Below, piece after piece: positions 5,433 to 30,235 of a stretch of DNA of 64,000 bases. Numbering within the stretch: the first letter of the stretch is position 1; the number at the start of each line of letters is the position of its first letter. The DNA lies in contig RXIX01000005.1 in NCBI GenBank assembly GCA_003989075.1, forward strand, positions 1 through 64,000, given 5' to 3'. The DNA comes from Candidatus Competibacteraceae bacterium. GTDB taxonomy: Bacteria > Pseudomonadota > Gammaproteobacteria > Competibacterales > Competibacteraceae. A model generated the notes under the pieces. It did not search any database and was not told the DNA's origin. It was given only the letters and a program-made list of their open reading frames with translations. A program made the translations under genes and the position numbers.

Positions 5433-5504
5433 GCCGGGAATCGACAAAATCCACAAAAAGCATAAAATCAGCAATTCTTCCCCACGATTTGTGTGAGGTT
5501 GTCG

Positions 5505-6107
5505 ATGAGCGGTCGGTATTTGACCACCCATGACATTGCCCGCCTGCTGATGGTATCACCGGGCTCGGTGCGGCTCTGGTCGGAAAAGGGCTGGTTGCCG
5601 GCGCAGACCACGCCCGGCGGCCATCGCCGCTTTCTGCGGCGCGATGTCGAACGTTTCGCCCGCGAGCGTGGACTGCATCTGAGCGATGCGTTGCCGCGCG
5701 AACTGCGCGTGCTAATCGTCGATGATGAGGCCCCCCTGGTCGGATTCCTGGCCGAACTGCTGCGCAACTGCGGCCAGCCGGTCGCAGTGGAAACCGCCAG
5801 CGATGGTTTCGAAGCCGGGCAGAAAATCCATGCCTTTCAGCCTCATGTGGTGCTGCTCGACCTGATGATGCCCGGGCTGGACGGCTTTCGCGCCTGTCAG
5901 CGCATCAAGCGCGATCCGGCTACCCACCATATTCGCGTGGTAGCGATGACCGGCTACTACTCCGAGGATAATTTGCGCGGCAGCCTGGATGCGGGCGCCG
6001 ATGCCGTGCTGGCCAAGCCCTTCGAGCGGGAATCGCTGCTGGCGGCGCTACGACTGGATATCGGCTGGCCGCTGCCAGTCAGGTCCACCGCAGCGGAGGG
6101 GCCATGA
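5505..6107 (+). CDS. MerR-type HTH + response-regulator receiver protein
   Basis: 200 residues. The N-terminal helix-turn-helix (about 5-55: YLTTHDIARLLMVSPGSVRLW then TTPGGHRRF) is of the MerR/BldC excisionase-like type that binds DNA. It is followed by a CheY-like receiver (67-185) with acidic pair D73-D74, phosphoacceptor D119 in LLDLMMPG, T149 and K171. HTH-then-receiver is the reverse of common response-regulator order. The ATG at 5505 has GAGG 6-9 bases upstream; a GTG at 5493 is in frame but poorer. The stop overlaps the next gene by 4 bp (ATGA), so it heads the signalling operon and is the only DNA-binding protein in it. Confidence 0.85.
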   Translation: MSGRYLTTHDIARLLMVSPGSVRLWSEKGWLPAQTTPGGHRRFLRRDVERFARERGLHLSDALPRELRVLIVDDEAPLVGFLAELLRNCGQPVAVETASDGFEAGQKIHAFQPHVVLLDLMMPGLDGFRACQRIKRDPATHHIRVVAMTGYYSEDNLRGSLDAGADAVLAKPFERESLLAALRLDIGWPLPVRSTAAEGP

Positions 6108-8497
6108 CCGACCAGTTGACCCTGCGCGATCTGGTGCGGCGACCGCCGATTACCGTCAAGCCGGGCGATGCCATCGAGCTTGCCCTGAGCTTGATGGAGG
6201 CGCATCGGATCAGCGCGGTGATCGTGATTGCCGGGCGGCGCCCGGTTGGCATCTTTACCGAGCGCGATGCGGTGCGCCTGCTGCTGGGTAATGCAGCCCG
6301 CGACAGCCTGCCGGTCGAGGCGCTGATGACGCCGCGCCCGGTGACCGCGCCCGGCAGCATGGCCTTCCTCGAAGGCTACTACCGTATGACTGAGCACCGC
6401 ATTCGGCACCTGATTCTGGTTGACGAAGCCGGCGATCTCGCAGGCATCGTCACCGAAACCGATTTCATGCGCCATCTGAAGCTCGATGCCTTCCTGGAAC
6501 CGCAGCGGGTCGAGGCGCTGATGACCCCGCAGCCGATCACGCTCGGGCCACAGGCCACGGTTGCCGAGGCGCTGGCTCTCATGCATCAGCACCGCATCAG
6601 CTCGATCGTGGTCACGGGCGCCGGCTGCCCGATCGGCATTCTCAGCGAGCGTGACGCGGTGCGTCTGGCGCGGCAGGGTTTGGCGCTGCACCAGATCCCG
6701 CTGGAGGTGGTGATGAGCCAGCCGGTGCGCGCCGTCAGCACCGAAACCCTGGCCCACGAGGCCAACGCGCGCATGAAGGAGGAGCGCATCCGCCACTTGG
6801 CCGTTGTCGATAGCGCCGGACAACTGGCCGGCATTCTCACCGAACACGACATGGTCAAGGGCCTGCAGGGTCGCTACACCGAGTTCCTGCGCCGCGTGAT
6901 CGAGCATCAGGGTCGCGAACTGAGCGAAGCCCGCCAGGTGCTCAGCGAAACCCTGGTGCTGGAACATATCCTGCGCGGCGCGCTGGACGTGGCCCTGGTC
7001 GCTGCTGACCGTGACCGGCGGGTGCATTACATCAATCCAGCAGCGGCGGCGCTGTTTGGCGTCGAGCGCGGTGCAGCGCGTGGCCAGAGTCTGGAAGCGC
7101 TGCATCATCTGGCTGGCCTCGACGAGGCACAGCTGGCCACCGGCCTGGCCGCCGCCGATGCTGGCGCCAGCCATGAATACCGCTGCAGCGGACCCTTGAC
7201 GGCCATGCTGCACACCTATCAGGGCCGCATTGCGCCGATCATCGACGAGGGCGGCCAGCATCTGGGCTATGTGCAGACTCTGCACGACATTACCGCTGAA
7301 TTGCGCCACCAGCAGGCGCGCGAACGCCTGGAGCGCGAACTGTTCCAGGCGCGCAAGATGGAAGCGATCGGCCAGTTGGCCGGTGGCATCGCCCATGATT
7401 TCAACAACATCCTGGCCACCGTGCTCGGCTATACCCAGTTGACGCTGGATTTGTACGGCGACGCGGGCGGCAAACTGCGCGATTACCTGGAGCAGGTGCA
7501 GGCCGCCGGTCGCCGCGCCCGGGCCCTGGTGCGATCGATGCTGACCTTCAGCCGGGGCAGCAACGCGCCGCCACAGCCGCTGCAACTGCTGCCGCTGATC
7601 AAGGAAATCGTCAAGATGCTGCGTCCGACCCTGCCGTCCACCTATCGTCTGGAGCTGCACAGCGAGTCCGGTTTGCCCGAGGTGCTGATCGATCCGATCC
7701 GCCTGCAGCAGATGGTGCTGAACCTGGTGCTGAATGCCCGCGATGCCCTGGATGTGCATGGCCGCATTGAGGTGCGCTTGTACCGCGATCTGGCGATCAG
7801 CGGCGATTCGGCGGTCACCGGCCGGCCGCTGCAGGGTGACTGGCTGGTGCTGGCGGTCGCTGATGATGGTCATGGCATGACGCCCGAGGTGCTCGAACAT
7901 GCCTTCGAGCCGTTTTTCACCACCAAGGCCATAGGCCAGGGCAGTGGCATGGGGCTGGCTGTGGTGCAGGGTATTGTCGCAACCGCCGCCGGCGATATCC
8001 TGGTCGATACCGCGCCCGGCCGGGGCACTACGGTGCGCGTGCTGTTGCCCGTGGTGCCGGCGACCGGCGTAGCGGTGAGCGGGCCGCTGCATCCGGTGAC
8101 AGCGGCGGCGAAAAATCTGACCGGCTGCCATCTGCTGGTGGTGGACGATGATCCCGGCGTGGCGGGCTATCTTGGCGAGCTGCTGGCGGTGCGCGGCGCG
8201 CAGGTCACCCCGCTGCTGGATCCGCTGGAGGCCCTGGCGCTGTTCGAGCGTAATCCCTGTGCGTTTGAAGGCGCGGTCTGCGATCTGACCATGCCGGGCA
8301 TGACCGGGATCGAGCTGGCCGAACGCCTGCAGGCCTGCCGGCCGGGCCTGCCGGTGATCCTGGTCACCGGCTATGGTGAACCGATGCCCGATGGTCTACC
8401 GGCTACGGTGATGCTATTGACTAAGCCAATCGATGCCGAGGCGCTGGTGGCAGCACTGGCGAGCGCACTGCGTCCGGCAGGAGTGGGCCATGCTTGA
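6104..8497 (+). CDS. hybrid histidine kinase with four CBS domains
   Basis: 797 residues, no membrane segment, so a cytoplasmic sensor. Two CBS pairs occupy about 8-125 and 135-260 (repeated signatures such as [37 protein letters not shown]). A PAS domain follows (about 285-395), then HisKA with H431 in GGIAHDFNN, an HATPase (N-box [12 protein letters not shown] boxes DDGHGM and GSGMGLAV), and a C-terminal receiver (675-790, phosphoacceptor D727 in CDLTMPGM). CBS pairs usually bind adenine nucleotides, so energy or nucleotide sensing is a reasonable inference. Overlaps the preceding gene by 4 bp and the next by 8 bp. Confidence 0.88.
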
Positions 8498-11400
8498 CCG
8501 TGACCCAAACCATGAACCAAACCATGACCCAAACCGGGAGCCGCATCCGGTAGAAGAGTGCATCGCGGCGGCTGCCCCTGGGCTGCTTGCATGCCTGCTT
8601 GAGCAAATCGCGCAGGGCGCGCTGCTGCTTGATGCGCAGGGCATCATTCTGCGCGCCAATACCCCGGCAGCCTATCTGCTGGACTGCAAGGCCGCCGAAT
8701 TGACCGGTCAGCCGCTGGCGGCGTGCTTGGGTGCCAGCCATCGCGCCAGCGTGGAAACCCTGCTGGTTGCCGGCGCTGGCACCACGCCCGTGACCCTGCA
8801 GCCGGCGCCTGGTCGCGGCCAGACGACGCTGCTGCATCTGCGTCCGCTACCCCTGCCGATAGCCGGGACGCTGCGTCTGGCGCTGTTCGATGAGCGCATC
8901 GCCAGTGACGTGCTGCAGACCGAATCGCTCAGCCAGGCAATTTTCCATCACGCTGCAGTGGCCCTGCTGGTCTGCAATCCACAGGGCCGCATCCAGCGCG
9001 TCAATGACGCAGCGGTGGCGCTGCTCGGCAGCGGGCTGCTGTTTCGCAACCTCGAAAGCGCCTGCCCGCTGCGGATGGAAAGCACCGGCACAGCGCTGGA
9101 TTGGGCGACACTGCGCGCCACGCCGGGCGCCGGCACGGTGATTCTGGACCGCGCCACCGACCGGACGCCGCTCAAACTGCGCCTGCACTGCACTGATCTT
9201 GGCGAGGCGCACGCTGAGTGCCGCTATCTGCTGACCCTGTACGAAGACGGTACCGCCGCACCCGACCACATCCGCAGTGCCCAGCACGCGGCGCAACAGA
9301 CCCTGGTGGCCAGCGAGGCACGGCTGCGCACGGCGCAGGCCTTCGCGCATGTCGCCAACTGGGAACTGGATATCGCCACCAGTACCGTTCTGGTGTCCGA
9401 GGAATGGTTTCGGATCTGGGGCCAGGAACCGGGCGCGGTCTCGCCGGTCGCCGTATTTCGTGAGACCGTGCATCCCGACGACCGTGAACGTGTCACCACC
9501 GCCCTGCAGCGCACCATGCATGGCGTCGGCGACTACCATGAGGAATATCGCATCCTGCGCCCCGATGGTGAGGAGCGTATTCTGGTCAGCCGTGGCCGGC
9601 TGCTGCGCGATGTCGCCGGGCGCCCGCTGTGCGTGTTTGGCGTGGTGCAGGACATCACTGAGCAGAGCCGCGCGCAACGCGAGCTGTTGCAGCAGAAGGA
9701 CCTGCTTGATGCCGTGGTGCACAGCATTCCCGACACCCTGATCATTGCCGATGCCCAACGCCACATCATCATGGCCAATCCTGGCCTGGAGCAGCTGTTT
9801 GGCTACACGCCCAGGCAGATGATCGGCCAGAGCACCGCCCTGCTTTACGAGGATGTGGCCGACTACGAGCAGCAGGGGCAGGTCCGCTGCCACCTCGCCG
9901 AGTCGATCCAGACCAACCGGCCCTATGTCGTGCACTACCGACGTTGCGATGGCAGCACCTTTCCCGGCGAGACCGTCGGCACCGCCATCCACGACCGGCA
10001 GGGGCGCTTTCTGGGCTTTCTCAGCCTGATTCGCGATGTCAGCGAACGCTGGCAGCATCAGGAAAAGCTGGAGCTGTGGGAAACGGCACTGGCGAGCATC
10101 ACCGAGGGCGTGCTGATCACCGACGCCCGCCAGAATATTCTCTCGATCAATCGCGCCTTCACCGATATCACCGGCTACACCGATGCCGAGGTCTGCGGAC
10201 AAACACCGCGGCTGCTGCGCTCGGGGCGTCACGACACGCTGTTCTATCAGCGCATGTGGCATGATATCAACCGAATTGGCCACTGGCGCGGCGAGATCTG
10301 GAACCGGCGCAAGGATGGTGATCTGTATCCCAACTGGCTGACCATCAACGCAATTCGGGGTCCTGACCGGCAGGTCAGATACTACGTCGGCGTATTTTCC
10401 GATCTGACCGCGATTCGCCGTTCGCAGGCGCAGGTCGAACATCTGACCCATTACGACCCGCTGACCGATCTGCCCAATCGCCTGCTGCTGATGTCGCGCC
10501 TGCGCCATGCCTTGCGCCGCGCCGGCAACGAGGCGGTAGCGGTGCTGTTTATCGATCTGGATCACTTCGCACGCCTCAATGAAAGCCTCGGGCAGCACAA
10601 CGGCGATCGCCTGCTGGTGTGCATCGCGGAGCGCTGGCTGGAAAACCTGCCCTCGACCGTGACCCTGGCGCGGGTGAGCGCCGATGATTTTGTAGCGGTT
10701 CTGGAAGATCCCGAGGATGCCGAGGCGGCCCTGGCGATCGCCGAGTCGCTGCTGGTGCAGACCTGCGAACCGCTGCTGCTCGATACCAGCGCGCCAATCA
10801 CCATTACCGCCAGCATCGGCATCGCCCTGTATCCGCAGGATGCCACCGATGCCGAGGCGCTGATCCGCAATGCGGAAAACGCTTTGCAATGCGCCAAGAA
10901 GGCCGGTCGTAATCGCGCCTGCCTCTACGATACCCGGCACAGCGCCGATGCCATCGAACGTTTCCGGGTTGAGAATGCCCTGCGCCTGGCGCTGAGCGGC
11001 GATGAATTCTTTCTCGACTATCAGCCGCAGATCGAATTGGCCGGCGGACGCATGATCGGTGTCGAGGCGCTGATCCGCTGGCGGCATAATGGCGTGGTGA
11101 TGCCGCCGGGGCGCTTCATTCCGGTGGCGGAGGGCTGCGATCTGATCGAGTCATTAGGACGCTGGGTATTGGAAAGCGCCTGCCATCAGGCCCGTATCTG
11201 GCTCGATCAGGGACAGCCGCTGCGCGTAGCCGTGAACGTATCCTCCGGGCAGGTCGTCTCGGGCGCGCTGGCGCGTGATGTCGGCATCGTGCTGGCCCGC
11301 AGCGGTCTGCCGCCCGCGTGGCTGGAACTGGAGCTGGTGGAAAGTACCCTGATCGAGCAGCCCGATGCGGCGGCATCCGCTCTGCGCACCCTCAAGGCGC

Positions 11401-11783
11401 TGGGCGTGAGCCTGGCCCTGGACGATTTTGGCACGGGCTATTCCAGTCTCGGCTATCTCAAGCATTATCCGTTTGACGTACTCAAGATCGACCGGCTGTT
11501 CATTGGCAATCTGGAGCGCGATCCCGCCGATGCCGCGATTGTCCGCGCCATCATCGACCTGGCGCATACCCTGGGCATGCGGGTTCTGGCCGAGGGTGTG
11601 GAAACCGCCGAGCAGTTGCGCTTCCTGGCCCGCCACGGCTGTGATCTGGTGCAGGGTTTTCTGCTCAGTCGGCCCATGTCGCCGGCCCGGATCGCAGCGC
11701 TGCGACAGCAGGAGCCGGATCTGGGCGCGCTGCTCGGTGAACCGCCCTTGAGTACCGGTCAAGGGCAGGGGGAAAATACATGA
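8490..11783 (+). CDS. multi-PAS GGDEF–EAL protein with degenerate GGDEF
   Basis: 1097 residues, soluble. PAS-like segments are at about 35-135, 145-250, 275-395, 405-520 and 530-645, followed by GGDEF (655-815) and EAL (825-1075). The GGDEF signature reads SADDF (730-734), losing both glycines, so diguanylate cyclase activity is unlikely. The EAL domain keeps E859-A-L, DDFGTGYSS (978-986), KID (999-1001) and EGVET, consistent with an active c-di-GMP phosphodiesterase, perhaps regulated by GTP binding to the dead GGDEF. The ATG at 8490 has AGGAG just upstream; upstream in-frame codons overlap the kinase gene. Residues 6-18 are an imperfect Asn-His-Asp/Glu-Pro repeat. Confidence 0.87.
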   Translation: MLDRDPNHEPNHDPNREPHPVEECIAAAAPGLLACLLEQIAQGALLLDAQGIILRANTPAAYLLDCKAAELTGQPLAACLGASHRASVETLLVAGAGTTPVTLQPAPGRGQTTLLHLRPLPLPIAGTLRLALFDERIASDVLQTESLSQAIFHHAAVALLVCNPQGRIQRVNDAAVALLGSGLLFRNLESACPLRMESTGTALDWATLRATPGAGTVILDRATDRTPLKLRLHCTDLGEAHAECRYLLTLYEDGTAAPDHIRSAQHAAQQTLVASEARLRTAQAFAHVANWELDIATSTVLVSEEWFRIWGQEPGAVSPVAVFRETVHPDDRERVTTALQRTMHGVGDYHEEYRILRPDGEERILVSRGRLLRDVAGRPLCVFGVVQDITEQSRAQRELLQQKDLLDAVVHSIPDTLIIADAQRHIIMANPGLEQLFGYTPRQMIGQSTALLYEDVADYEQQGQVRCHLAESIQTNRPYVVHYRRCDGSTFPGETVGTAIHDRQGRFLGFLSLIRDVSERWQHQEKLELWETALASITEGVLITDARQNILSINRAFTDITGYTDAEVCGQTPRLLRSGRHDTLFYQRMWHDINRIGHWRGEIWNRRKDGDLYPNWLTINAIRGPDRQVRYYVGVFSDLTAIRRSQAQVEHLTHYDPLTDLPNRLLLMSRLRHALRRAGNEAVAVLFIDLDHFARLNESLGQHNGDRLLVCIAERWLENLPSTVTLARVSADDFVAVLEDPEDAEAALAIAESLLVQTCEPLLLDTSAPITITASIGIALYPQDATDAEALIRNAENALQCAKKAGRNRACLYDTRHSADAIERFRVENALRLALSGDEFFLDYQPQIELAGGRMIGVEALIRWRHNGVVMPPGRFIPVAEGCDLIESLGRWVLESACHQARIWLDQGQPLRVAVNVSSGQVVSGALARDVGIVLARSGLPPAWLELELVESTLIEQPDAAASALRTLKALGVSLALDDFGTGYSSLGYLKHYPFDVLKIDRLFIGNLERDPADAAIVRAIIDLAHTLGMRVLAEGVETAEQLRFLARHGCDLVQGFLLSRPMSPARIAALRQQEPDLGALLGEPPLSTGQGQGENT
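8501..8536 (+). repeat. three tandem 12-bp copies in the 5' coding region
   Basis: TGACCCAAACCA, TGAACCAAACCA and TGACCCAAACCG lie head to tail and encode the NHEP/NHDP/NREP run of the GGDEF–EAL protein. The period of 12 keeps the frame, so copy-number changes would only lengthen the N-terminal linker. Confidence 0.8.
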
Positions 11784-13888
11784 GTGCAAGAGGAGTCGAT
11801 CCGGTCGCGCAGGTCGGGGCGCTGTCTAGGCTGTCTGGCGATACCGTAGCCCAGGAAACCCTGGCGCGTTTTACCGCCCTGGCCGGTAATCTGCCGCTGG
11901 GCCTGCTGATGGAAAATGCCGAGCGGCGCGTGCTGCATGTGAATGCGGCGTTTTGCGAGATGTTCGGGGTGCCGTCGCCGACCCTGCTGCTGGGCAACGA
12001 TTGCGCCGCGGATGCTGAATGCAGCAAGCACCTGTTTGCCGATCCCGAAAGCTTTCTGACACGGGTGGCCGAACTGCTCAATGCGGGGCGTCCGTCGCGT
12101 AATGAAGAATTGCTCCTGGCGGATGGCCGGGTGCTGCTGCGCGACTATGCCCCGGTGCGCGCTGCCGATGGCGCGCTGCTCGGTCATTTGTGGCTCTATC
12201 TGGATATCACCGATAACAAGCGCACCGAGCGCGAGCTGGCACAGTCGCAGCGCGAACTGGAAAGCATTTTCGAGAACCTGCAGGACACCTATTACCGCAC
12301 CGATCAGGCCGGGCGCATCCTGCGCGTTTCGCCCTCGGTGCAGCGCCTATTCGGTTATGAACCGGCAGAGCTAATAGGTACGCCACTGGAGGATTACTAC
12401 TGCGAATCGGCCGGTCGGCGCTCGTTTCTCGCTGCACTGGCAGCGGCGGGAAGTCATCTGCAGGGCTTTGAAGTCGCGATGCGCCACCGCGCCGGCCACA
12501 CGGTGTGGGTGGCGGCCAGTTCCAGCTACTGGTACGACGGCAGCGGCGCGATTGGCGGCGTTGAAGGCATCGTCCGCGATATTACCGAGCGCCGCGAAAG
12601 TGCCCGGCAATTGGCCGAGAGCGAGGCCCGCTACAGCTCGGTAGTCAATCACATCCGCGAGGTAGTGTTCCAGACCGATGCCGCCGGTTTGTGGACCTTT
12701 CTCAATCCGGCCTGGGCCGAGATCACCGGTTTTGCCGTTGCCGACAGTCTGGGTCGCTGCTTTCTCGATTACATCCACCCCGATGACCGCGAGCGTAACG
12801 CCCGCCTGTTCCAGCCGCTGATCGAGCGGCGCAAAGACTATTGCCACCATCAGATCCGCTACCTGACCTGCGATGGCGGCTTTCGCTGGATCGAAGTACA
12901 TGCCCGTCTGACCCTGGATGCCGGCGATGCCATCGTCGGCACCTCCGGCACGCTGCGCGATGTCACCGAGCAGCGCCGCGCCGAGGAATTGCAGCGCTTT
13001 GGCGCCTTCCAGGCCGGCATCGCTGAAATGAATACCTCGGTGCTGCACAACATCGGCAATGCCATCACGACCCTGGGCAATGACGCCGTGCTGCTCGGGC
13101 AGGCCTGCGCCGATCTGGACCGCATCGCCGCGCTGTTGCGCCAGCATGCCGCCCATACCGCTGCCGCCTTGCCTGAGGAGCCCCGGGTCGAGCGCAGCGT
13201 GGTTGACGGGCTGCTGGGATTGCAGTGCGAGGTGGCGGCGGTGCTGGAGCGTCTATGCCGCGACACGCTGCGCGAACGCAGCCAGCGCATCGGTGCCAGC
13301 GCCCAGCATATCACCGACATCGTGCGCATCCAGCAGAGCGCATCCCTGCCGGGTGGCCAGGTCAGCACCTTCAGCCTGCGCCAGGCCGTCGAGGATGCCC
13401 TGGCTCTACAGGGCGAGTTCTTCGAACGCTACCGGATTCAGGTTACGGTCCGTATCGACCCGGCCGCCGATGAAGTGACTCTGTCGCGCAACCGCCTGTT
13501 GCAGGCGCTGATCAATCTGTTCAGGAACAGTAGCGAGGCGATCAGCGAGCGGCAGCATCAGGAACAGTGCTCAGGCGGTCATCTCGAAGTGCGCGCTGAA
13601 GCGCTCGCCGAGGATCGGGTACGGCTGACGGTGACCGATGACGGTATCGGGGTCGAGGCAGCCCACTTGCCCGAGGTGTTCCGTTTTGGCTTTTCCACCA
13701 AGGCGCGCGGCAGTGGCTTTGGCCTGCATGCCGTCGCCCTGTTCGTGCAGGAGGCTGGCGGCCACATCGCCCTGCAGAGCGCCGGGCGCGGCCAGGGCGC
13801 GGCCCTGCTGCTGGAACTGCCGCGCCGACTTGCCGTTGTACCTGGGCCCGTTTCTGGCGCTACTCTGAATATTCCGCTTCACTTTTGA
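11780..13888 (+). CDS. PAS-domain sensor histidine kinase (LHNIGN type)
   Basis: 702 residues, soluble. Three PAS domains (about 30-145, 158-272, 283-398) precede the kinase core. The dimerisation helix carries an unusual phosphoacceptor motif, SVLHNIGNAITTLGN, with H423, instead of the common SHELR/SHDLK. The ATPase has N-box NLFRNSSEAI, G1 TDDGIGV, and G2 GSGFGLHA. LHNIGN-type kinases form a recognised minority group among PAS kinases. Overlaps the upstream GGDEF–EAL gene by 4 bp; the next gene, a receiver–PAS protein, is the likely phosphotransfer partner. Confidence 0.85.
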   Translation: MSARGVDPVAQVGALSRLSGDTVAQETLARFTALAGNLPLGLLMENAERRVLHVNAAFCEMFGVPSPTLLLGNDCAADAECSKHLFADPESFLTRVAELLNAGRPSRNEELLLADGRVLLRDYAPVRAADGALLGHLWLYLDITDNKRTERELAQSQRELESIFENLQDTYYRTDQAGRILRVSPSVQRLFGYEPAELIGTPLEDYYCESAGRRSFLAALAAAGSHLQGFEVAMRHRAGHTVWVAASSSYWYDGSGAIGGVEGIVRDITERRESARQLAESEARYSSVVNHIREVVFQTDAAGLWTFLNPAWAEITGFAVADSLGRCFLDYIHPDDRERNARLFQPLIERRKDYCHHQIRYLTCDGGFRWIEVHARLTLDAGDAIVGTSGTLRDVTEQRRAEELQRFGAFQAGIAEMNTSVLHNIGNAITTLGNDAVLLGQACADLDRIAALLRQHAAHTAAALPEEPRVERSVVDGLLGLQCEVAAVLERLCRDTLRERSQRIGASAQHITDIVRIQQSASLPGGQVSTFSLRQAVEDALALQGEFFERYRIQVTVRIDPAADEVTLSRNRLLQALINLFRNSSEAISERQHQEQCSGGHLEVRAEALAEDRVRLTVTDDGIGVEAAHLPEVFRFGFSTKARGSGFGLHAVALFVQEAGGHIALQSAGRGQGAALLLELPRRLAVVPGPVSGATLNIPLHF

Positions 13889-13908
13889 TTCGCAACGAGG
13901 CTACAACA

Positions 13909-14715
13909 GTGATTGCCGAAGCGTTTAATCGCCGGGTGCTGGTGATCGACGATGACGCCGCCATCCGCGAAACCTATCGCAGCATCCTGCAGCCGCAGCC
14001 GCTGGGATCGGCGCTGCTGCAGTCGCTGCTCAATCAGCAGGCCGCGCCGGTCCGCGAGACGTTCGAGGTTGCCACTGCCACCCAGGGCCAGGAAGGCGTG
14101 AGCCTGGCCGCTACCGCCCTGGCTCAGGGACAGCCCTTTGCCCTGGCCTTCATCGACATGCGCATGCCGCCGGGCTGGAATGGCCTGCGCACCGCAGTGG
14201 CGCTGCGGGCGCTCGATCCAACCGTATATGTCATTATCGCGACTGCCTACGCCGATCACGATCCCGATGAGATCCAATCGGCGCTGGGCCACAACGTGGT
14301 GCTGCTGCGCAAGCCGTTCAATCGCGATGAAGTCTTTGCGCTGGCCCGCACCCTGTGCCAGAGCTGGAGTACCCGCCTGCATTTAAATACCCACGCCAGC
14401 TTCCTGGACGCGGTGGTCGAGCACCTGCCGGTGCCACTGCTGATCCTGACTGCGGACAGCAGGCGCCTGGTGCGGGTTAACGCCGCCGCCGAGCGGGTGC
14501 TGGGCCAGACGCGGCAGGCGCTGTGCGGGCAGATCGCGGATGCAGTACTGCCAGCGCCCCTAGTCCAGACCCTGGCCGGTACGGATGGTGGTGATTGGCT
14601 GACCACCGATGGCCATTGCCACGGCCTGCGGGTGCAGGCTTTTTCCAGCGGTGAACGCACACTGTGGCTGCTGGCAATCCTTGAAGTGGCGCTGCCGGCC
14701 ACTGCCGCCGGCTGA
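13909..14715 (+). CDS. receiver–PAS response regulator
   Basis: 268 residues. The receiver domain (8-150) has the acidic triad D14-D15-D16, phosphoacceptor D83 in FIDMRMPPGWNG, T112 and K135. About 30 extra residues sit between the first helix and the second strand (near 28-52), an insertion not seen in CheY. A PAS domain follows (about 165-265: LPVPLLILTADSRRLVRVN). There is no DNA-binding or enzymatic output, so it may act as a phosphorelay intermediate or adaptor. A GTG at 13909 with GAGG 9-12 bases upstream is preferred; a TTG at 13885 overlapping the previous stop is the alternative. Last gene of the operon. Confidence 0.78.
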   Translation: MIAEAFNRRVLVIDDDAAIRETYRSILQPQPLGSALLQSLLNQQAAPVRETFEVATATQGQEGVSLAATALAQGQPFALAFIDMRMPPGWNGLRTAVALRALDPTVYVIIATAYADHDPDEIQSALGHNVVLLRKPFNRDEVFALARTLCQSWSTRLHLNTHASFLDAVVEHLPVPLLILTADSRRLVRVNAAAERVLGQTRQALCGQIADAVLPAPLVQTLAGTDGGDWLTTDGHCHGLRVQAFSSGERTLWLLAILEVALPATAAG

Positions 14716-28195: not shown

Positions 28196-30235
28196 TCAGT
28201 CGCCCGCCGCCGCGACCCGGTTACGACCGGTGGCCTTGGCTCGGTACAGCGCGGCATCGGCGCGGCGCAACAGATCCTCGCCGCTCTCGCTCCTGTTGAG
28301 TTCGGCCACGCCCAAGCTGGCGCTGATCGCGCCGACTGGCGGTATCGGCTGATCGGCGATCAACTGCCGCATCTTCTCGGCCAGCGCAACCGCCGCGTTC
28401 AGGCGCAACGGGGTGAGGATGACAAACTCCTCGCCGCCCCAGCGCGCCAGGGTGTCGGAGGCACGTAAATGTCTGGTGACGGTCTGGGCGACGCTGGTGA
28501 GCACCTGATCGCCGATGATGTGACCGTGCTTGTCGTTGATATGCTTGAAATGATCCAGGTCAAACAGAATCAGTGCCAGCGGCTGATGATAGCGATGGCA
28601 GCGCTCGACCTCGCTGTGCAGCAGGGCGTCGAATTTGCGGCGATTCCACAGCCCGGTCAGCTTGTCGGTGTCAGCCAGGCATTCCAGTTCGGCCAGTGCC
28701 CTGGTCAGCCGTGCATTAGCTTCGCGCAAGTCGTGTTGGGTCAGCTGCAATGCGCGGTGCTGCTGCTGGCGTTGCAGCGCCTCGGCCAGGGTGTCGGCAG
28801 CCAGCTTGAGCAGAGCCAGTTCCTGCTCGCTCCACAAACGGGGGGCACGCACGGCGTCATAACCGGAAAAACCCAGCAGCACACCGCCTGCCAGCAGCGG
28901 ATACATCACCAGTGATTGAATGCCCTGTTCCGCCAGCAGTGGACGTGCCAAAGCATGCTCCGGCGGCATATCGTCCAGGTTGCGCAGCAGGTACATCTCG
29001 CCGCGCTGAAACCGGTCGATCAAGCCAGGAAAGGTGTCGAAGGGGACATTCTGCAACTGGTTAATCTGTGCCGTGATCCCGGGCGCGCACCATTCGTAGC
29101 GGTCGTTCCATTCGTGGCGCTGCCAGTCGTTATCGAAGACATAGACCCGGTCGGCGCCGGAATAGTCGCCCAGCAGCACCAGCATGTCGCGGATGGCCTG
29201 ATCCAGTTGCTCCAGCGGCGCCTGCGCCAGACGGGTGGTGATCAGGGTAGCGGAGCGATAGAAGCGGTTATAGGCGTGCAGATCCTGCTCGAACTGATGG
29301 CGCTCGCCCTGCAGTGCGGCAACCAGCAGAGCAATAGCCGTGGTAGTGGTAGTGAACAGCCAGACCAGTTCATAGCCGGGCCGGTGGCCCAGCATCCGAA
29401 AGGGGCCGGCCTGTTGCAGCGCCGCCAGTGCCGCCAATGCCGCCAGCAGCGCCGCCGTCAGCACCACAATCCACAGCGGAAAACGCAGACCGGCCCAAAC
29501 CAGCATCGGGAACAGCAACAGCAGCAGGGTCACGGCGTGATCACCGGTGGCCAGTGGATTGAAAAACACCACTCCACCGCCAGCCACGGTCGCAAGCAGC
29601 AGGATGAACAGTTCGCGGCCCTGTTCGCGCAGCGCCCGGCGCAGCACCGCCCGGTCAAAACCAAGTATCAGCGGTGCGAACAGTAGCGCGCCGACCGTGT
29701 CGCCCAGCCACCAGGTGATCCAGGCTGTCAGGAATAGCGGGCTGGCGATTTCGGTCGCGGGCAGAATAGCCAGCAGGCCGCCGGTAGGTGGAATCGTCAT
29801 CGCCAGCGGTACCATCAGCAGGAAGCCAAACACATCGCGGCGATTATGGAAGCCTGGATCCAGGGGCAGGGCGCGTAGCAGCGCCACAGCCAGCACTGGC
29901 CCGAGGGTATTGCCGATGGCGATCAGTGCCGCCGTACCCAGGCCGTGAAAGCCGGTCGCGGCCATGGCGCCCAGATAAAGACCCGGCCAGTAGCCCAGGC
30001 CCCAGCGCAGCAGTGCGCCAATGGCAATCCCGGTCGGCGGCCAGAACAGCGAGATCGAGTCAAAGGTGTAGCTCATTTCCAGGCCCAGGCGGGCACTCAG
30101 AAAATAAGCCAGCGCCAGAAACAGCAAGCGTGATACCCGTCGGCGCCAAGCCCAATGAGGCGGTTCTGTCGGGTGCTCGGCAACTGGAAGCGTGGCCGGG
30201 GCGTCATCACTCGGTTTTTCGAGCACCACGCTCAC
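28196..30235 (-). CDS. MASE1–GAF–GGDEF diguanylate cyclase
   Basis: 679 residues. An N-terminal MASE1 membrane sensor (about 33-305, eight or so hydrophobic helices, with LFWPPTGIAIGALLRWG) is followed by a GAF-like domain (325-490), a coiled coil, and GGDEF (520-675). The active-site signature is intact as GGEEF (600-604), and an RxxD inhibitory I-site (R591-D594) sits five residues upstream, so both c-di-GMP synthesis and product inhibition are expected. Its 5' end overlaps the lipoprotein gene by 29 bp. Confidence 0.9.
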   Translation of the reverse strand: MSVVLEKPSDDAPATLPVAEHPTEPPHWAWRRRVSRLLFLALAYFLSARLGLEMSYTFDSISLFWPPTGIAIGALLRWGLGYWPGLYLGAMAATGFHGLGTAALIAIGNTLGPVLAVALLRALPLDPGFHNRRDVFGFLLMVPLAMTIPPTGGLLAILPATEIASPLFLTAWITWWLGDTVGALLFAPLILGFDRAVLRRALREQGRELFILLLATVAGGGVVFFNPLATGDHAVTLLLLLFPMLVWAGLRFPLWIVVLTAALLAALAALAALQQAGPFRMLGHRPGYELVWLFTTTTTAIALLVAALQGERHQFEQDLHAYNRFYRSATLITTRLAQAPLEQLDQAIRDMLVLLGDYSGADRVYVFDNDWQRHEWNDRYEWCAPGITAQINQLQNVPFDTFPGLIDRFQRGEMYLLRNLDDMPPEHALARPLLAEQGIQSLVMYPLLAGGVLLGFSGYDAVRAPRLWSEQELALLKLAADTLAEALQRQQQHRALQLTQHDLREANARLTRALAELECLADTDKLTGLWNRRKFDALLHSEVERCHRYHQPLALILFDLDHFKHINDKHGHIIGDQVLTSVAQTVTRHLRASDTLARWGGEEFVILTPLRLNAAVALAEKMRQLIADQPIPPVGAISASLGVAELNRSESGEDLLRRADAALYRAKATGRNRVAAAGD

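Follow-up and report, generated by a model that had tools for sequence, protein, structure and literature searches.

The DNA analysed here is a stretch of 64,000 nucleotides (the window) from contig RXIX01000005.1 of a Candidatus Competibacteraceae bacterium, and the system in question is a signalling operon at positions 5505-14715. The operon comprises five open reading frames (ORFs) on the + strand, referred to as g1 to g5. The first, g1 (5505-6107), encodes a response regulator with an N-terminal BldC/MerR-type winged helix-turn-helix (HTH) and a C-terminal receiver (REC; Pfam HTH_17/MerR and Response_reg), the reverse of the usual response-regulator order REC-HTH. It is followed by g2 (6104-8497), a hybrid histidine kinase identified by Pfam and motifs with the order CBS x4-PAS-HisKA-HATPase_c-REC. 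In g3 (8490-11783), a predicted cyclic di-GMP (c-di-GMP) phosphodiesterase, PAS repeats precede a degenerate GGDEF and an EAL domain (Pfam EAL 7e-74, NCBIfam and motifs). The histidine kinase g4 (11780-13888) combines three PAS domains with an LHNIGN box (Pfam PAS and HATPase_c, motif), while g5 (13909-14715) consists of a long-type receiver (DMRMPPGWNG) and a PAS domain without an output enzyme (Pfam Response_reg and PAS, gene context). Reading of the ORFs together with Pfam bore out the genes and domains that a preliminary description had assigned, with corrections that include the degenerate GGDEF of g3 and the lack of a HisKA match in g4.

The first four genes overlap by 4, 8 and 4 bp, and a 20-bp gap precedes g5. 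Read directly, the g1/g2 junction is ATGA (6104-6107), the g2/g3 junction is ATGCTTGA (8490-8497) and the g3/g4 junction is again ATGA (11780-11783). The gap contains GAGG and leads to the GTG start of g5 at 13909; an alternative TTG start lies at 13885. The overlaps lend good support to the earlier suggestion that the five genes are likely co-expressed, and one transcription unit is well supported by this arrangement. A feature missed in the preliminary description lies within 70 bp upstream of g1, where positions 5435-5479 of the + strand carry the 9-bp direct repeats GGAATCGAC AAAATCCAC AAAAAGCAT AAAATCAGC AATTCTTCC, the predicted operator of g1.

Arrays were assessed by the best 27-bp self-match at each lag, compared with dinucleotide shuffles. 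The array of the window scored 18/27 at lag 9 (p=0.003). When a repeat matrix trained without the window was run over both strands of the 64 kb, positions 5435-5470 ranked above all others, with 15.7 bits versus 8.7 bits for the runner-up. A sigma-70-like promoter (TCGACA-16-TAAAAT, + strand, 5441-5468) overlaps the array; one such match was found versus 2.0 expected in shuffles, and being at chance level by itself it was rejected as independent promoter evidence. Further stretches of high 9-bp self-similarity occur at 29410-29450 (21/27) and 10700-10730 (19/27), the latter inside g3, and neither is among the top matches of the matrix. In the genome of the organism no stronger array was found with a pattern derived from the window array itself, and candidate further regulon members were only weak matches with 2-3 mismatches.

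Similar arrays precede many genes of the g1 type (HTH-REC) in other genera, for example AAAAACGAT TAAAACGAA AAAAACGAT at locus L169, and motif fitting gave ATAAAATCG as the consensus of the 9-bp unit. At 32 discovery loci, which are partly related to one another, the mean score was 14.2 at lag 9 and 11.1-12.6 at other lags, with 13.1 at the harmonic lag 18. Scores of at least 18 were reached by 8/32 loci at lag 9, by one at lag 6, by three at lag 18 and by none at the remaining lags, and 11/32 loci differed from their shuffles at lag 9 with p<0.02. The periodicity recurred in a second, independent set made up of 15 HTH-REC loci, most of them more distant and 14 belonging to other classes of the phylum. 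Over lags 4-17 the mean here was 16.5 at lag 9, above all 500 shuffle means (maximum 12.9), and 10.9-12.2 at every other lag; one locus (L227) scored 26/27. The matrix from the first set, trained without the window, peaked in the independent set only at spacing 9.

Genome-wide searches allowing at most two mismatches placed 11 of 12 matches in twelve discovery genomes at an HTH-REC promoter. As the search pattern was partly taken from the discovery arrays, the informative part of this result is the lack of other matches. In two genomes outside the training set (G509 and G502) all five matches lay at an HTH-REC promoter. An array of this kind thus seems to be almost confined to the promoter of the regulator itself, apart from a few additional copies beside partner genes. 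A match in G264 (C30) was discarded as an array site, as it falls in the 3'-terminal part of a coding ORF. Next to an HTH-REC gene, a REC-HD-GYP gene (L167:3014-4111, - strand) has the upstream 9-bp array GTTTATCGA TAATATCGA TAATAGCAC TATTATCCC. Near another HTH-REC gene, the array TTACAATTC GTAATAATC GCAATATTC GCAATTATC precedes the gene of a thiamine pyrophosphate (TPP)-dependent, acetolactate-synthase-like enzyme (L164:14445-16367, - strand), which is a possible second target of the regulator.

A protein known to bind repeats of this kind is BldC of Streptomyces, each protomer of which binds one 9-bp direct repeat head-to-tail, with the consensus AATTXXXX(C), i.e. AATTNNNN(C) (PMC5859096). 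Among MerR-like regulators, BldC has been described as the sole one known to recognise direct repeats via its winged HTH alone (PMC5859096). The HTH of g1 was predicted with a pLDDT (predicted local distance difference test) of 92, and the BldC-DNA complexes 6ama and 6amk were among its top fold matches, including rank 1; both were also matched by sequence. Both proteins have a winged HTH of this fold with a GGHRR(F/Y) wing. Of the residues compared in the head-to-tail interface and the wing, BldC Val23, Trp31, Thr42, Gly44, His46, Arg47 and Arg48 correspond to Val17, Trp25, Thr36, Gly38, His40, Arg41 and Arg42 of g1, while Arg30 and Leu43 are replaced. The repeats are likewise comparable, being AT-rich and direct with a 9-bp period in both cases, and their cores are related (AATTCG for BldC, AAA(A/T)CG here). 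At the level of sequence, putative operators of 9-bp direct repeats, the kind used by BldC, were found for g1 and many other HTH-REC genes. Whereas BldC is a stand-alone winged HTH, g1 is fused C-terminally to a receiver and, in Gram-negative bacteria, is predicted to target the operon that encodes it. Apart from BldC no report of 9-bp arrays or direct repeats for HTH-REC regulators was found; few subscription papers were covered and the novelty is provisional. For the receiver of g1 the nearest solved structure by sequence and fold was 3cnb, the receiver of a 'merR family' DNA-binding response regulator from Colwellia psychrerythraea. That entry contains the receiver alone and carries no function or DNA site.

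The relatives of g1 were surveyed with mechanically made start codons and ORF calls, and their neighbourhoods with domain models derived from the window. HTH-REC genes occurred in 29 of 369 sampled genomes of the class (26 of 272 genera), mostly once per genome, and also in other classes of the same phylum. None was found at E<=1e-25 in 38 genomes of the same family, a sample without any other genome of the same genus. In viral contigs no HTH-REC gene was found with a single query, and with an alignment the matches were mostly HTH-only or receiver-only. At 22 of 43 HTH-REC loci a hybrid kinase was encoded no more than 8 kb away, at 20 of these 22 no more than 3 kb away, and all 29 hybrid kinases near these loci shared the strand of the HTH-REC gene. 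The Arg one position before the equivalent of BldC Arg30 is invariant in the family. With its GGHRRF-type HTH and C-terminal receiver, its same-strand hybrid kinase and its 9-bp promoter array, g1 carries all three marks of this family. Two variants (L182:7974-8555 and L234:1462-2052) have the wing LPGRG(D/N) instead of TPGGH and may be HnoC-like; that of L234 also has an upstream 9-bp repeat (16/27).

REC-HD-GYP genes, whose products are c-di-GMP phosphodiesterases by family, were found near 9 of 28 discovery loci, while about 0.6 were expected from genome density (117 matches in about 85 Mb of the discovery-locus genomes), which makes them the conserved c-di-GMP partner of HTH-REC. EAL genes were rejected as such a partner, occurring at only two of the 28 loci (L159 and L179), where a density of about 16 EAL genes per genome would give roughly 2-3. 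As they are no commoner than chance in the discovery set, g3 is a local substitution for, or an addition to, the commoner HD-GYP partner.

The HisKA domain of g2 has the motif GGIAHDFNN, and all four CBS repeats carry the GhxT/SxxD motif, which is associated with ribose-phosphate binding, so that nucleotide sensing by the CBS array is plausible. The kinase core and receiver of g2 gave CckA-type and VirA-like hybrid kinases as best NCBIfam matches, below cut-off; g2 differs in its input of four CBS domains plus PAS, and unlike the CckA system the operon has no ChpT-like histidine phosphotransfer (HPt) partner. In g3 the GGDEF signature is degenerate (SADDF) while the catalytic motifs of EAL are intact (EAL, NVS, ELVES, DDFG, KID and EGVE). 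The top NCBIfam match of g3 was the DibA phosphodiesterase family, with 651 bits below the 980-bit cut-off, and Pfam gave no Response_reg match. The phosphoacceptor of g4 is probably within its LHNIGN box. In all three receivers (g1, g2 and g5) the acidic pocket is preserved, as are the phospho-Asp and the Lys. None of the five proteins has a strong membrane segment, and sensing is therefore probably cytoplasmic.

The preliminary description had named a gene order not conserved in any relative as its refutation. The five-gene set and order were not recovered in any relative examined, which goes part of the way towards that refutation, and only partial relatives of the CBS kinase g2 and of g4 were found among the family genomes. 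In contrast, two sub-modules recur in relatives: HTH-REC with a hybrid kinase (module A, here g1 and g2) and an LHNIGN kinase with a long receiver (module B, here g4 and g5). At the module B loci of family relatives (L110, L112, L114, L118 and L185-L187) the gene of an LHN-box kinase immediately precedes that of a long receiver, which carries GGDEF-EAL or a kinase core. As a set, the five genes are lineage-specific and combine modules that recur elsewhere. The closest overall analogue of the set was locus L304, which encodes HTH-REC, PAS3-GGDEF-EAL, PAS2-kinase, REC-PAS-kinase and REC, in that order, on one strand. In the LHN(I/V)GN-box kinases, g4 included, Asn replaces Asp/Glu after the phosphoacceptor His, and the downstream long receivers that they adjoin have a DMRMPPG-type motif. 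Like g4, the LHN-box kinase of L185 gave no Pfam HisKA match, and no paper was found for the motif in a literature search on 'LHNIGN' kinases.

The statement that no named system has this composition needs qualifying, as the Hno network of Shewanella oneidensis (HnoK, HnoS, HnoB, HnoC and HnoD) comes close; it comprises two kinases, a transcription-factor response regulator, an EAL response regulator and an HD-GYP response regulator (PMC6335343). Two kinases are common to both systems, as are a transcription-factor response regulator and an EAL phosphodiesterase that acts on c-di-GMP, and in Hno the transcription factor feeds back on its own regulon (PMC6335343, PMC8738867, PMC12471899), as is proposed here for g1. 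They differ in that Hno uses H-NOX as nitric oxide sensor, while no H-NOX gene flanks the operon, and in that the EAL and HD-GYP proteins of Hno are fused to receivers, which g3 lacks. HnoC has been reported to recognise palindromic motifs (PMC9938897), in contrast to the 9-bp direct repeats predicted for g1.

With a probability of about two in three, the operon is best explained as one transcription unit that joins two conserved two-component modules to a c-di-GMP phosphodiesterase and that g1 controls as a whole by BldC-like binding of the 9-bp array. Taken together, the arrays and the BldC-like HTH indicate that the operon is probably under a phospho-controlled, BldC-like autoregulator. Module A would couple the CBS-sensing hybrid kinase g2 to g1, module B would couple g4 to g5, and g3, encoded between them, would degrade c-di-GMP. 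In this mechanism g1 would coat the array at 5435-5479 head-to-tail, as BldC does, and form a filament, and phosphotransfer from g2 to g1 would change the occupancy of the array. The one promoter-like site, itself a match at chance level, lies under the array, which makes repression the likeliest sign of regulation, with unphosphorylated g1 as the repressor and phosphorylation by g2 relieving or re-setting repression. Derepression is the first guess because the unphosphorylated HnoC tetramer represses and its phosphorylation releases repression (PMC12471899). The kinase, the phosphodiesterase and module B would thereby come under a common feedback, and g3 activity would be expected to follow operon dosage.

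Several results weigh against this explanation. A significant array was missing at about half or more of the HTH-REC loci, and the named homologue on a Methylomagnum plasmid has no AT-rich array. The array of the window is weaker than the best HTH-REC arrays, and high lag-9 similarity is not rare by itself, as seen near 29418. On the protein side, the base-reading Arg30 of BldC is Leu24 in g1 and Gln in many homologues, and the interface residue Leu43 is Pro37, so that the details of binding must differ from BldC. The NCBIfam HTH_BldC model scored 43.5 bits on g1, below its cut-off of 77, which places g1 outside the BldC family by that measure. It nevertheless probably works like BldC.

Three other explanations were considered. 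The first, which is unlikely though compatible with autoregulation by g1, is that g3 and g5 represent a split fusion protein and that the g5 receiver regulates g3 in trans. It draws on a paralogue in the same genome (G000:C20, L183:10235-13216), in which a long receiver 54% identical to g5 is fused to PAS-PAS-PAS-GGDEF-EAL 43% identical to g3, and on the GGDEF-EAL often carried by receivers adjoining LHN kinases in relatives. These are arguments from homology, and as GGDEF-EAL proteins are abundant, the similarity to g3 is weak evidence. More doubtful still is that two independent signalling pairs and a phosphodiesterase merely share a transcript as neighbours, in which case g1 would act at other sites of the genome and the repeats in the promoter would be incidental. 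While the absence of the set from the 38 family members and the recurrence of the g4-g5 type of pair without g1-g3 would fit this, the array is the top matrix match of the window, such arrays recur at HTH-REC promoters across classes, and the search with the window-derived pattern found no stronger one elsewhere in the genome. The self-contained phosphorelay of the preliminary description, in which both kinases feed all three receivers and end in transcription and c-di-GMP outputs, was not supported and is equally improbable: a single operon with two kinases and three intact receivers would suit it, and the Hno kinases can share a transcription-factor response regulator and c-di-GMP response regulators (PMC6335343), but Pfam found no HPt domain among the five proteins, g3 with its EAL domain has no receiver to phosphorylate, the receiver of g5 carries only PAS and no output enzyme, modules A and B have separate conservation histories and the five-gene order was not found in the relatives examined.

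Upstream of the operon lie genes for a metallo-beta-lactamase-fold protein, corA and trmO, and downstream are tRNA-Val and thrS (ThrRS). These genes are unrelated to the signalling set, which bounds the operon unit on both sides. The same genome contains a second CBS-array signalling cluster (G000:C35, L184:3960-14020, - strand) with genes for REC-HD-GYP, CBS4-PAS-GAF, an SBP-PAS-hybrid kinase with Hpt and a PAS-hybrid kinase. At least two of its gene junctions overlap, and the CBS part of its CBS4-PAS-GAF protein is 37.5% identical to g2.

For an uncharacterised family of response regulators encoded beside hybrid kinases, and often beside c-di-GMP phosphodiesterases, the arrays provide an exact predicted operator. 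They predict BldC-type DNA geometry in phospho-regulated proteins over several bacterial classes. A more tentative proposal, which we hold at somewhat under even odds, is that g1 represents a widespread class of response regulators with a BldC-type winged HTH, which would form phosphorylation-controlled head-to-tail filaments on 9-bp arrays essentially private to their own kinase/c-di-GMP operon. Each such locus would then be a self-limiting switch.

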